A stretch of DNA of 25,999 nucleotides, taken from the IMG/VR virus record IMGVR_UViG_3300037847_005260, positions 1 to 25,999 of that record, one strand, 5' to 3'. Below the pieces are notes generated by a model. The model saw only the letters and a program-made list of their open reading frames with translations. It was not told where the DNA came from and did not search any database. The stretch comes from a virus. Shown piece after piece: positions 4,781 through 15,941 of the stretch (position 1 is the stretch's first letter; every line of letters starts with the position of its first letter). The position numbers were made by a program, and so were the translations under genes.

Positions 4781-4822
4781 GTAATATAGTAAAAATTATT
4801 CAATTATCCAAATTATTGACAA

Positions 4823-8524: not shown

Positions 8525-8747
8525 TGTTTAGTTTTGTTTTAAATAGTTTGAACATTGTCTCCACAAAATGAGTGGCAATACCACATCTGACATCATGTAG
8601 AAATAATTCGAAAACAAAATCCTCTATCTCTGTTTGTAGTTCGTCATATAGCTCATCTGACAAGTGCTCAGTGTCCACATAATCTACTACGCATTCGAAG
8701 TAATCATTAAAATACTCCCTGTCCAATAATTCGTTAGGGTCTGTCAT
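8514..8747 (-). CDS. Small acidic protein, first gene of left arm (77 aa)
   Basis: This is a strongly acidic, Phe/Tyr-rich helical protein (MTDPNELLDREYFNDYFECV, later DELYDELQTEIEDFVFELFL), ending KTKLNNGK. I recognise no family. It is the first gene leftward from the divergent promoter region and overlaps recA by 11 bases, so it should be expressed earliest with recA. Small acidic first genes often modify host functions or regulate the next gene. That is an inference from position only. Confidence 0.65.
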   Translation of the reverse strand: MTDPNELLDREYFNDYFECVVDYVDTEHLSDELYDELQTEIEDFVFELFLHDVRCGIATHFVETMFKLFKTKLNNGK

Positions 8748-8770
8748 AAATATGGTTTTGTGTGAAACTA

Positions 8771-8804
8771 CAAAATATATCTGACATAAACAAGTAATTT
8801 ACAA
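8771..8804 (-). promoter_or_regulatory. Leftward promoter candidate for the recA operon
   Basis: Minus-strand TTG (8802-8804) is followed after 22 bases by TATATTTTG (8771-8779). This resembles the Bacteroidota -7 box with one extra base between TA and TTTG. It would start transcription about 20-30 bases before the ATG at 8745-8747. No better candidate lies between the two divergent first genes. Confidence 0.45.
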
Positions 8805-8833: not shown

Positions 8834-8841
8834 AAAAACCC

Positions 8842-8872
8842 TTGACATTGTCAATTTTATTTACTATGTTTG
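8842..8872 (+). promoter_or_regulatory. Rightward Bacteroidota-type promoter
   Basis: TTG (8842-8844) is followed by 20 bases and then TATGTTTG (8865-8872), a perfect TAnnTTTG -7 box with optimal spacing. Transcription would begin near 8878-8882, giving a leader of about 75 bases before the ATG at 8956. The same bases also contain TTGACA, but no matching TATAAT lies at 17 bases, so the Bacteroidota reading fits better. Confidence 0.75.
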
Positions 8873-8886
8873 CAATGTCCAAACAA

Positions 8887-8938
8887 GGGGAGAGAGGAAA
8901 GGGGGACTACAGGGGGTTTGGTGAGAGGGGTTCTAGGG
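8887..8938 (+). promoter_or_regulatory. G-tract leader, possible RNA/DNA G-quadruplex
   Basis: Five G-tracts lie on the transcribed-sense strand: 8887-8890 (4), 8901-8905 (5), 8912-8916 (5), 8927-8930 (4) and 8936-8938 (3). Loops are 10, 6, 10 and 5 bases. The stretch is purine-rich and unlike the surrounding A/T-rich DNA. It falls in the 5' leader of the rightward transcript. Loops longer than seven bases make a quadruplex possible but not certain. Confidence 0.45.
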
Positions 8939-8955
8939 TGAGTAAATAATATAAT

Positions 8956-9321
8956 ATGTCTAAATACACAGCACTTCCTTTTGACATACAATATACAGAT
9001 AAGATTGACCTTATAAAAAAGGTCTTAGAGATATATTCTGTTTCTGTTACATCTTTAACTAAAAGAGACATGGATATCTTGCTTTTATGTTTATTGTATG
9101 ACATGAATGATAAGAAATTTAAAAATAAAGTTATTTCATCTGGTATAGGTGTAAATACAGAACAAAATGTGGCTACAATGCTTTCTAGGTTAAAAAAGAA
9201 AGGATTAATAGATAAAAACAACAGAGGTAAAAAAGTATTTAATACTGACCTGTCACATCTAAAATCAGCTCTAGACTCAGAACACAATGTAGCATTCATC
9301 ATGAAATTCAATGGAATATAA
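8956..9321 (+). CDS. Winged-helix-like putative regulator, first gene of right arm
   Basis: The 121-aa protein starts MSKYTALPFDIQYTDKIDLI. The region about 33-100 reads as a winged helix: LTKRDMDILLLCLLYDMND (first helix), then SSGIGVNTEQNVATMLSRLK (turn and recognition helix), then KKGLI and a basic wing (NNRGKKVFN). 'L+kRe..iL.lll' followed by 'RLKKKGLI' is typical of MarR-like and other wHTH folds. As the first gene behind the rightward promoter it could regulate either arm or act in packaging. No terminase small-subunit signature is seen. It overlaps the next gene by 11 bases. Confidence 0.6.
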   Translation: MSKYTALPFDIQYTDKIDLIKKVLEIYSVSVTSLTKRDMDILLLCLLYDMNDKKFKNKVISSGIGVNTEQNVATMLSRLKKKGLIDKNNRGKKVFNTDLSHLKSALDSEHNVAFIMKFNGI

Positions 9322-9715
9322 AGATAAAATATATTTCTTAGAGGATATTTTAGATGAGTTTGAAAAGCGAGGTGGAGACAAGGAAGCAGCAGAAGCTATA
9401 TACTGGTACTTTCTTGATAAGACACTTCAAGAGATGTCTAAAACAGATAACGTAGTATTTAAGATACCTAAGTTTGGTAATTTGTATTACACAATATCTT
9501 CTCTTCATGGTTTAAAAAATAAAGTTGAGAGGGAACTAAAGTATACAAAGAAAAATTCTCCAAAAACTATTGCAGAAATAAAAAATATTCTGTATATTGT
9601 AAATACAAAAATAGACAAAGTAGATGCTCTAGTGCAAAAAGCTTTGGATAACAAAGTGAAAAACATATGGTTTTTTAGAAAGAGATTTAATCCTAAATCA
9701 ATTAAAAATGGGTAA
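9311..9715 (+). CDS. Hypothetical protein (134 aa)
   Basis: The N-terminal half includes WYFLDKTLQEMSKTDNVVFK, then IPKFGNLYYTISSLHGLKNK, a 'helix then IPKFGN hairpin' pattern loosely like the β-arm of HU/IHF-type proteins but too short and irregular to claim. The C-terminal half is a basic helical region (VERELKYTKKNSPKTIAEIK) ending RKRFNPKSIKNG. A nucleic-acid-binding role is possible. It overlaps both neighbours (11 and 8 bases), so it belongs to the run leading into the terminase. Confidence 0.6.
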   Translation: MEYKDKIYFLEDILDEFEKRGGDKEAAEAIYWYFLDKTLQEMSKTDNVVFKIPKFGNLYYTISSLHGLKNKVERELKYTKKNSPKTIAEIKNILYIVNTKIDKVDALVQKALDNKVKNIWFFRKRFNPKSIKNG

Positions 9716-13041: not shown

Positions 13042-13083
13042 TTGTAAGAAATTTGTTTAATTAAAATATTATACATATATTCG
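13042..13083 (+). promoter_or_regulatory. Promoter upstream of portal (repeat element + -7 box)
   Basis: TTGTAAGAAATTTG (13042-13055) ends in a TTTG -33 element. After 20 bases comes TATATTCG (13076-13083), one mismatch from TAnnTTTG. The portal ATG is 20 bases beyond the -7 box. The identical 14-mer and spacing recur before the scaffold gene (15900-15941), which strongly supports function. Confidence 0.65.
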
Positions 13084-13102: not shown

Positions 13103-15808
13103 ATGTTTTTCGACATAAATCTTAAGGATGCACCATTTTTGGGGGATAGTCTAAGACTTCCTGCTCAGGCGTTACCTGACAAAAAGAAAACCAAAATATG
13201 GTTTAAGGACTGTATGGATACTCTAGAAACTATAGGTATTCGACAGCTCAATGTCGCAAGACATAGATTTGAAGATGCTTACCGCATCGTAGAGGGAAGT
13301 TACTCATATAGTGCTGTGACTAATACTTCTGCATTTTTATCAGAGGTTGACATGTTAAGGCAACAGTCAGACCTTCCCGAAGACTTACAACACTATGGCT
13401 TCATAGAACCTATAGTCAACACTCTTATAGGTGAGTACATCAAAAAGCCAAATCCTACTATAATCTACACTAACGACCCAACTTCCACGAATGAATATCT
13501 ACGTGTGAAGAAAGACCTTTTGTGGCAGAAAGTAGGAAAAGCAATAGATACTGAGGTCAACTTGAAGCTGATGAAAATGGGTATGGACCCAATGGGTAAA
13601 AAGTTTGAAAACGAAGAGCAGAAGCAGAAGTTTATGCAACAGCTCCAGCAAGCCAAGCAAAAAAACATACCAAAGGAAGTTCAAGATTATATGGATTCCG
13701 AATGGAAACCTATCTACATAGAGTGGGCTGAACAACTTATTGAAGAGGGAGAGACAAGATTCCAAATGGATGAACTGTATAGAGAGCTATTCAGAGATTA
13801 TCTAATCACTGGTAGATGCTTTATGCACTGGAGAATCGGTCATGACTTTTATCAACCTGAAAGATGGTCGCCTTTGAACACTTTTACTTCAGTTACTCAA
13901 CAAGAAAAGTATCCTGAATTAGGCGAGTATGTGGGTCGGATACAATATCTATCCCCTAATCAAGTGGTAGTGAACTACGGACACATGATGACAGAAAGTC
14001 AAAAAAGAGACTTGCTTAAATCAAAACACTACACTCAATCCGAGGTATCTGCATCTAACAGCATAAAAGACACGCAGTCTTGGTTAGAAAATTTTGGAGG
14101 TTATAATAAAAGAGTATCCCATCCTAATTATATTGCTTATGAAAATTTAGGTGTTCTACAGGACCAAACTGGTATGGACTTTGGATACAGAGGGCATTTC
14201 CCTAATCAAGACCAAAATTTTAATTTGTTCTTTAACGATTACGAAAATCGTTATGACATGATTAGAGTTGTAGAAGCATATTGGGTATCCTACAAAAGGA
14301 TAGGGTTTCTTACAATGAAGAAAGGGGATACTCAGCAACTTGTAACAGAAATTGTAACAGACGAAATTTTAAAAGATATTATTAACGAATATCAAATAAA
14401 AAAACTCACTACGGTTTCCTTAGAGGAAAACCAAAAAAATCCAAGAGAGAATACTATTCTTTGGGACTACGTTCCTGAAGTTTGGAAAGGAGTTAAAATA
14501 CTAAACGATAATACAGACCTACCAGAACACTTATACCTCTATGGAGAACCTATGGAATATCAATTAAGAGGTGAAAGCTCTCTATTCCATACTCTCCTGC
14601 CTGTTAATGGTCTATTCGAACACACATCTCTAGTTTCTAGAGTAGAGATAGACCAAATTGAATATTCTCTTGCTATGAACATGGCTAGAGACTATATGTC
14701 TAAGGAACTTGGATTATTCTTCCTAATGGACCTAGCATATATGCCTGAGTTCTTAAAAGACTTTGGAGGAGACGAAGCTATTGGCAAACTAATGGAAGTA
14801 ACGAGGAACCTTGGGCTTCTCCCTGTAGATTCTTCTCAAGCTAGAGGAACTGCCTTCAATAACTTCCAAATGGTCAACATGGATTTAACGGCAGCTATGA
14901 TGGGCAAACTAAACTTTGCTCAAGCTATTAGAAACAGGGCATTCGAAAAACTCGGTTTACATCCTCAAAGAATGGCAGGCCAAATAGAACAGACAACTGC
15001 TACTGGTATACAAGTAACTCAAGATGCATCATATGCACAAACAGAGGTTTGGTTTGATAAGTTTTCTAAGTTCCATCAGAGGTCAGCAGAAATGCATATT
15101 AATGTAGCACAATGGCTACAGCAGCAGGGTAAAGACATTACGGTTAGTTACACAGATAGCGACAAGATAAGACATTTTGTTTCTATGATTGACCCCGAAT
15201 TACCAATAAGAAGATTCAAAATCTATACTCAAAATAATTCAAAGAGAAGAAGTGAGTTAGAAACTCTCAAGAAAACTTTCTTTAGTGACAATACCATATC
15301 TAAGACATTAGAAGATATGGCTGAGGTAATATCTGCAGATTCTACTGCTAAAATTATACAGATAGCTAGGCTGGGTAGGCAAAGAGCAGACCTTCAAAAA
15401 CAAATGCAGCAAAAACGTCAGCAACAGCAACTGCAGATTGAAAAAGCAAATGAATTTGAACTTGAACAGCTTAAACATCAACATAAGATGGAGATAGAGA
15501 AGTTAAAAGGAGAAATTGCATTGAACAAGCAAACTATCTTGTCTTTAGGATTTGTAAAGGATGATGGCCAAACCCCAGACGAAGAAGAAACTCCAAAAGT
15601 TGTAGAACAACTACAGACTGCAACACAAGACCTTGACACTAGGTTTAAGATGAGGCAAATGGAGTTACAAAATAGGTTGAAAGAAACTCAAGAAAATAGA
15701 CAATACCTTCTTAAGCAGCAAGAATTAGCTCTTAAGCAGCAAGAGATAAACGCTAGAAAAGAGATTGCTGACAAGCAGATGCAAATCGCCAAGATAAATA
15801 AAAACTAA
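13103..15808 (+). CDS. Portal protein
   Basis: This 901-aa protein sits directly after the large terminase and before the scaffold and capsid genes. The order, size and a typical portal block near residues 620-650 (RMAGQIEQTTATGIQVTQDA) support the call. The dodecameric portal forms the capsid vertex through which DNA enters and leaves. The N-terminal third contains a Lys/Gln-rich helical stretch (about 165-200). The C-terminal approximately 145 residues (about 755-901) are a Gln/Lys/Glu-rich coiled coil with runs such as QQKRQQQQLQIEK, longer than in most portals. It may form an extended barrel or bind scaffold. The large size is shared by portals of crAss-like and other Bacteroidota phages (general knowledge). 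Confidence 0.85.
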   Translation: MFFDINLKDAPFLGDSLRLPAQALPDKKKTKIWFKDCMDTLETIGIRQLNVARHRFEDAYRIVEGSYSYSAVTNTSAFLSEVDMLRQQSDLPEDLQHYGFIEPIVNTLIGEYIKKPNPTIIYTNDPTSTNEYLRVKKDLLWQKVGKAIDTEVNLKLMKMGMDPMGKKFENEEQKQKFMQQLQQAKQKNIPKEVQDYMDSEWKPIYIEWAEQLIEEGETRFQMDELYRELFRDYLITGRCFMHWRIGHDFYQPERWSPLNTFTSVTQQEKYPELGEYVGRIQYLSPNQVVVNYGHMMTESQKRDLLKSKHYTQSEVSASNSIKDTQSWLENFGGYNKRVSHPNYIAYENLGVLQDQTGMDFGYRGHFPNQDQNFNLFFNDYENRYDMIRVVEAYWVSYKRIGFLTMKKGDTQQLVTEIVTDEILKDIINEYQIKKLTTVSLEENQKNPRENTILWDYVPEVWKGVKILNDNTDLPEHLYLYGEPMEYQLRGESSLFHTLLPVNGLFEHTSLVSRVEIDQIEYSLAMNMARDYMSKELGLFFLMDLAYMPEFLKDFGGDEAIGKLMEVTRNLGLLPVDSSQARGTAFNNFQMVNMDLTAAMMGKLNFAQAIRNRAFEKLGLHPQRMAGQIEQTTATGIQVTQDASYAQTEVWFDKFSKFHQRSAEMHINVAQWLQQQGKDITVSYTDSDKIRHFVSMIDPELPIRRFKIYTQNNSKRRSELETLKKTFFSDNTISKTLEDMAEVISADSTAKIIQIARLGRQRADLQKQMQQKRQQQQLQIEKANEFELEQLKHQHKMEIEKLKGEIALNKQTILSLGFVKDDGQTPDEEETPKVVEQLQTATQDLDTRFKMRQMELQNRLKETQENRQYLLKQQELALKQQEINARKEIADKQMQIAKINKN

Positions 15809-15871
15809 AATTTACAAATTTTGTAAATTTACAAATTGTAAAACATAAATATTACAGAGTTTGTAAAACTC
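15808..15871. promoter_or_regulatory. AT-rich palindrome cluster with TTTACAA/TTGTAAA words
   Basis: Five copies of TTTACAA or its complement TTGTAAA occur at about 15811, 15821, 15828, 15836 and 15861. They build a 23-base near-palindrome (15808-15830), a perfect 16-bp palindrome TTTGTAAATTTACAAA (15820-15835), and a hairpin GAGTTT-GTA-AAACTC (15857-15871). They lie between the portal stop and the scaffold promoter and look like operator sites. They lack the G/C stem and T-tract of a terminator. Confidence 0.5.
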
Positions 15872-15899
15872 AATAATAAAAATTAATCAAATTTAACTC

Positions 15900-15941
15900 T
15901 TGTAAGAAATTTGCATAAGTTAGATATTATTTTTAAGTTTG
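15900..15941 (+). promoter_or_regulatory. Promoter upstream of scaffold/capsid (repeat element + perfect -7 box)
   Basis: The 14-mer TTGTAAGAAATTTG (15900-15913) is identical to that before the portal. It is followed after 20 bases by TAAGTTTG (15934-15941), a perfect TAnnTTTG box. The scaffold ATG at 15960 is 19 bases downstream of the box, matching the 20 bases seen at the portal. Confidence 0.75.

Follow-up and report, generated by a model that had tools for sequence, protein, structure and literature searches.

The question raised by this locus is whether a fourteen-base sequence, repeated exactly before the portal gene and before the presumed scaffold gene of a virus recorded in IMG/VR, belongs to a promoter and, if so, which protein would read it. 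In the window, i.e., the whole stretch of 25,999 bases analyzed here, the terminase large subunit gene lies before the first copy and a head protein gene follows the presumed scaffold gene, the 390-aa product of which has no match in PHROG or Pfam. The window terminase is ~31% identical to those of Cellulophaga phages phi17:2 and phi4:1 (genus Lightbulbvirus), fourteen portal relatives are found in IMG/VR, and the hosts of this virus group are probably Bacteroidota. Two of the related contigs, G002 (26.6 kb) and G171 (64.5 kb), come from one metagenome and may be two parts of one genome, as judged from their sum of ~91 kb, which is near G008 and G009. The gene timing of Bacteroidota phages on host polymerase is little described; for crAss001, transcription of the middle and late genes is thought to rely on the host enzyme (PMC8375218).

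Repeated element upstream of the portal and scaffold genes

The sequence TTGTAAGAAATTTG occurs exactly at 13042–13055 and 15900–15913, and the window holds no third copy. At both sites its terminal TTTG is followed, after exactly 20 bases, by a second box, TATATTCG before the portal gene and TAAGTTTG before the scaffold gene (Table 1), in exact agreement with the preliminary description. The ATG lies 19 bases past TATATTCG (ATG 13103) and 18 bases past TAAGTTTG (ATG 15960), in each case one less than the 20 and 19 bases given there.

Measured against the Bacteroidota host promoter consensus (PMC6847099, PMC7366714), in which the –7 element is TAnnTTTG, TAAGTTTG is an exact fit and TATATTCG has one mismatch; TAAGTTTG does not fit the refined consensus TAHHTTTG. 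Several –7 boxes in this phage group have the same sequence as TAAGTTTG, with G at –9, a base nearly absent at this position from mapped F. johnsoniae promoters (PMC6847099), which would fit promoters that depend on help. On sequence grounds, the element is a predicted Bacteroidota-type promoter (–33 TTTG, –7 TAnnTTTG) with an added TTGTWA box that starts ten bases before the –33 element. An E. coli-type sigma-70 scan of the window was set aside as not meaningful for this phylum, and searches of the window with Rfam and ARAGORN gave no match.

The claim that the arrangement is too regular for chance holds for the whole, since two identical 14-mers, each with N20-TAnnTTnG downstream, appeared in none of 300 simulated windows. 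The 14-mer repeat is weak evidence and by itself unremarkable, because the window contains 13 exact direct repeats of at least 14 bases (2.6 ± 1.6 in first-order Markov sequences). The strong evidence for the predicted element is comparative and comes from the relatives.

Table 1 Coordinates of the predicted promoter elements, genes and other features in the window
Feature	Position	Strand	Basis and remarks
Weaker boxed candidate, TTGTCAATAATTTG-N20-TATATTAC	4781..4822	–	Orthologous sites AAGTAA, ACGTAA or ATGTAA
Leftward boxed promoter: TTGTAAATTA, CTTG (8791–8794), N20, TAGTTTCA (8763–8770)	8763..8804	–	Sequence; NTGTWA kept in relatives
Rightward promoter without box: CTTG, N20, TATGTTTG	8841..8872	+	Sequence
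121-aa winged-helix protein, candidate box reader	8956..9321	+	Fold model, structural matches, conservation; putative link to box
TTGTAA box, portal promoter	13042..13047	+	~–46 to –41 of predicted start; invariant in ten non-identical relatives; fixed register
–33 element TTTG, portal promoter	13052..13055	+	Fits Bacteroidota consensus (PMC6847099); invariant in relatives
–7 element TATATTCG, portal promoter	13076..13083	+	Start predicted at ~13088 from consensus
Portal protein gene	13103..15808	+	PHROG 6547, E 1.3e-86
TTGTAA/TTACAA cluster, both orientations, AT-rich inverted repeats	15806..15875	+	Hairpin energy z –3.35
TTGTAA box, scaffold promoter	15900..15905	+	Sequence; fixed register
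–33 element TTTG, scaffold promoter	15910..15913	+	Sequence
–7 element TAAGTTTG, scaffold promoter	15934..15941	+	N20 after TTTG; predicted start ~15946
Presumed scaffold gene, 390 aa	15960..17132	+	Position between portal and major head protein

Invariance and spacing in related phages

The portal-side element, for which a scan of relatives had been proposed, occurs at each of the 14 related loci; in L016 it has drifted to TTGTTAGGTTTTTG. With a spacer of 17–22 bases allowed, the length is 20 every time at the portal and scaffold sites. TTGTAA and TTTG are invariant among ten sequences, whereas the mean pairwise identity is 61% in the spacer and 67% in the upstream flank. In more distant relatives, read by eye, the scaffold site has TTGTTA or TTGTTT and a changed –33 element, and the –7 element is still 20 bases away. 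The extension TTGTAAGAAA lies upstream of the –33 element, as had been described, but its conserved part is only TTGTWA, usually with an A directly before –33.

Promoter candidates were collected from 12 contigs of the lineage with the pattern [CT]TTG-N20-TAnnTT, mostly outside genes and upstream of a gene starting with ATG, and near-identical ones were collapsed, which left 62. TGTWA begins at –9 from the –33 element in 27 of the 62, a count that overstates independence because many sites are orthologous; no other offset occurs more than once, and the full TTGTWA begins at –10 in 21. Boxed genes across the lineage are those for the portal, the scaffold, a 233-aa and an 829/1021-aa product, the leftward gene at 8747 and a gene which we take to be ribonucleotide-reductase-beta-like from our own reading of the sequence; in G014 they include a 359-aa gene and a large RNR-like gene. 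A site at a lipoprotein gene (G005, G006, G008, G171) was left out as separate evidence, since its strongly conserved flank may be coding. In G014 both the portal gene and the scaffold gene are preceded by CACCTRTTTGTTAGG, and two further sites have close variants of it; phi17:2 has one clear boxed site (gp75), the others having drifted, and the regions inspected in csAssE-Sib contain no boxed site.

Boxed and unboxed promoter candidates

The preliminary description proposed a class of promoters for structural genes. A recurrent and conserved class is borne out, but its restriction to structural genes is not. On the minus strand, TTGTAA at 8799–8804 is part of a leftward promoter candidate that reads TTGTAAATTACTTG from the box through –33 (8791–8804), downstream of which lie a small gene, i.e., the leftward gene at 8747, and then RecA-like, PhoH-like and exonuclease genes. 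These replication-module genes, and the boxed sites at the ribonucleotide-reductase-beta-like gene in G171 and the large RNR-like gene in G014, rule out that the extension marks structural genes alone, and the split between boxed and unboxed candidates does not follow that between structural and non-structural genes. The weaker boxed candidate in Table 1 abuts the ORF start that was used, and either this start or the site itself may therefore be incorrect.

The rightward promoter, which had been placed at 8842 and described as lacking the extension, indeed has no box, and the matching regions of the relatives likewise have none. Two timing classes of promoters are plausible, as a large number of the G014 promoter candidates lack the box; these lie mainly on the other strand. 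The p value of 0.002 from a Fisher test of box against strand in this contig is not relied on, because the counts are manual and one of the unboxed classes was selected once the data had been viewed.

Several further observations concern these promoters. The divergent pair at 8841–8872 and 8763–8794 shares CTTG followed three bases later by WTGTCA, and the rightward member contains the palindrome TTGACATTGTCAA, a possible operator that is for the most part conserved in relatives. The words TTTCCG, TTTCGC and TTCCGA are strongly over-represented in the intergenic regions of G014 and stand just upstream of several unboxed promoters, where they perhaps form a second upstream box of another promoter class. 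At 35370–36610 of G014, the contig of L016, a boxed promoter stands immediately before a TnpB-like gene and the next gene is also preceded by one, as if the insertion had separated or copied the promoter. The 317-aa ribonucleotide-reductase-beta-like protein is ~99% identical among G171, G008 and G009, the portals of which are ~71% identical to that of the window; recent exchange or strong constraint is possible.

Proposed mode of action

We favor, at somewhat better than an even chance, a composite phage promoter in which TTGTWA would be bound by a phage-encoded protein that acts like a class II activator, so that middle/late units are switched on. The host RNA polymerase, carrying the primary sigma factor of Bacteroidota, would read TTTG (~–36 to –33) and TAnnTTTG (–12 to –5), exactly 20 bases apart, and the phage-encoded DNA-binding protein would occupy TTGTWA (~–46 to –41, as computed with the –7 element set at –12 to –5) beside sigma region 4. 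The region next to –33 in which the box is situated is the home of class II activator sites and of proximal UP subsites. The activated units would comprise the portal, the scaffold, two further structural-side genes, ribonucleotide reductase and the leftward replication module, and the first-needed genes, including that of a winged-helix protein (8956–9321), would be served by promoters without the box.

The activator model is supported by the fixed register, by the invariance of the box as against the drifting spacer, and by the use of the same box at different genes in several genomes; a phage-encoded activator is favored because the box has an invariant G, is restricted to phages and has changed in G014. 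The sequence observations comprise the boxes, with their register and conservation, and the lack of an excess in host genomes; we infer promoter activity, activation rather than repression, the timing and the identity of the reader. The boxed promoter of the replication module weakens the timing part of the model.

Alternative readings of the box

An unlikely alternative is that the box is a phage-optimized UP-element subsite for the C-terminal domain of the host polymerase alpha subunit, or a site for a host factor, in which case these would be strong host-type promoters requiring no phage factor. The box coincides in part with where the proximal UP subsite lies in E. coli promoters, and a small, partly ascertained sample of host promoters is A/T-rich at this position; however, the same sample has no TTGTAA pattern, and the box is no A-tract, as one of its invariant bases is a G. 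Furthermore, no enrichment of the box over shifted controls was found in either set of host-group genomes. The full pattern gave 3 matches in 149 genomes from the class around Bergeyella, and also 3 with the box shifted by 4; in 196 Flavobacteriales genomes it gave 7, four of which are near-copies of one sequence and one the genome used as center, against 5 with the box shifted by 3. These controls and the host promoter profile, small as that sample is, rule out that host promoters carry the extension in general.

Among other viral contigs, one stringent pattern gave 22 sites in 18 stretches, whereas the pattern with the box moved by 4 gave 0, as did one with a word of equal composition; an earlier pattern scan had many matches that, among those listed, lay inside genes, and these are excluded from the counts. 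G022 carries several boxed sites among about 60 core promoters. With no host excess and yet sites in other viral contigs, the box emerges as a phage feature wider than one lineage. Its occurrence in other phages also keeps the UP-element explanation alive, as it is found in Bacteroidota-type phages without the winged-helix protein.

The box might instead be an operator, at which a phage repressor would keep these promoters off until late, a reading that we consider improbable. It would be in keeping with the TTGTAA/TTACAA words that surround the scaffold promoter in both orientations, and with the fold of the candidate protein discussed below, which is common among repressors. The gap between the portal and scaffold genes holds six such words where 0.81 are expected, a number reached in none of 1000 shuffles; the same gap has five or six in the four closest relatives and, summed over eleven genomes, 38 against 7.3 expected, with none in L009 and L016. 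The clustered words also speak for the activator model, as they fit a DNA-binding protein, and together with the changed G014 site they suggest a sequence-specific protein whose site has diverged in G014. TTGTAA between genes numbers 12 against 3.7 in the window and is likewise in excess in G005, G009 and G013, with no such rise in G008, G014 and phi17:2, so that the excess is deemed local and a general intergenic enrichment was rejected. What argues against an operator is the fixed register to –33, which is seen more often with factors in contact with polymerase, whereas operators usually vary in position.

Even less likely is a phage-encoded sigma factor that would read the whole extended promoter. 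An ECF-type sigma gene is present in G014 and a longer one in G022, and some –7 boxes depart from the host consensus; the –33 and –7 elements nevertheless remain near that consensus, and the restriction of Pfam sigma-70 region 2 matches to G014 and G022, among records of which several are fragments, lowers the probability, with no match in G008, G009, G002 (the partner of G171) or the whole phi17:2 record. A chance repeat or local duplication without function, common as fourteen-base repeats are in the window, is very improbable given a register that is fixed across diverged genomes and different genes and a box more conserved than its surroundings.

A candidate reader of the box

For the preferred reading, activation by a phage-encoded protein, the product of 8956–9321 is the candidate reader. 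Its model has a mean pLDDT of 85 and the element order of a winged helix, and the protein is 98–100% identical in the five closest genomes, where the neighboring gene product is 65–95% identical to that of the window; either strong constraint or recent exchange could account for this. Foldseek matches of the model include the MotA activation domain. In VIA-align, however, the MotA chains (Z 6.4–6.7) tie with Zur, DnaD and LexA (Z 6–7) and with many unrelated winged helices, so only the general winged-helix fold is supported and MotA is not accepted as the family.

In G014 the winged-helix protein is 37% identical, and the box there has changed coherently at the portal and scaffold sites, which would agree with this protein reading the box. 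Our proposal that the winged-helix protein heading the structural operon is the master middle/late activator, acting with Bacteroidota polymerase at TTGTWA (–46 to –41) and co-diverging with it in G014, is tentative and less likely than not; if true, it would provide a phage activator–promoter pair in a phylum with an unusual primary sigma factor. In phi17:2, gp75 has the same fold and its promoter is itself boxed, which speaks against a reader made from an unboxed promoter. A search of G022 with the profile of the winged-helix family found no copy, although G022 has boxed sites.

Two features adjoin the winged-helix gene. Between it and the rightward promoter lies a leader with runs of G (8875–8950; GGGG, GGGGG, GGGGG, GGGG) that is nearly identical in G002, G004, G005 and G006, its run pattern being kept in G007–G013. 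A 24-codon ORF is open in the leader of the window and not open in G008 or G009. The leader has no Rfam match and its ordinary folding is unremarkable; a G-quadruplex, an origin or a packaging site is possible. The second gene of the rightward operon (9311–9715) is conserved in all relatives, and its positional counterpart in csAssE-Sib carries the annotation of a DNA-binding protein.

Comparison with known promoter systems

Searches of an open-access library gave no description of this promoter class or box. A box in fixed register and a conserved candidate reader make up a directly testable system, which could yield switchable promoters for laboratory Flavobacteriia.

The core resembles promoters of the Bacteroidota primary sigma factor (sigma ABfr), with –33 TTTG, –7 TAnnTTTG and a similar spacing, but differs from them in the added TTGTWA at a fixed upstream place, in some –7 elements with G at –9 and in a spacer of always 20 bases. 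A site beside –35/–33 in fixed register is likewise found in class II activator promoters (lambda cI, CRP at ~–42); the putative activator site in the lineage of the window, by contrast, is a hexamer without a clear dyad. UP elements are alike in position and A/T-rich make-up, and the box differs from them in its invariant G and phage-specific use. In T4 middle promoters, too, a phage-specific box (the MotA box, with sigma appropriation) is placed on promoters of the host polymerase (MotA/AsiA features: PMC6755090), and the candidate 121-aa protein weakly resembles the MotA activation domain, though no more than it does many unrelated winged helices. The MotA box, however, replaces the –35 element, whereas here the –33 TTTG is kept and invariant with the box upstream of it, and MotA has an activation and a DNA-binding domain, whereas the candidate consists of one 121-aa domain. 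The predicted promoters described here would belong with other phage promoters that have an accessory upstream box, in this case on a Bacteroidota –33/–7 core.
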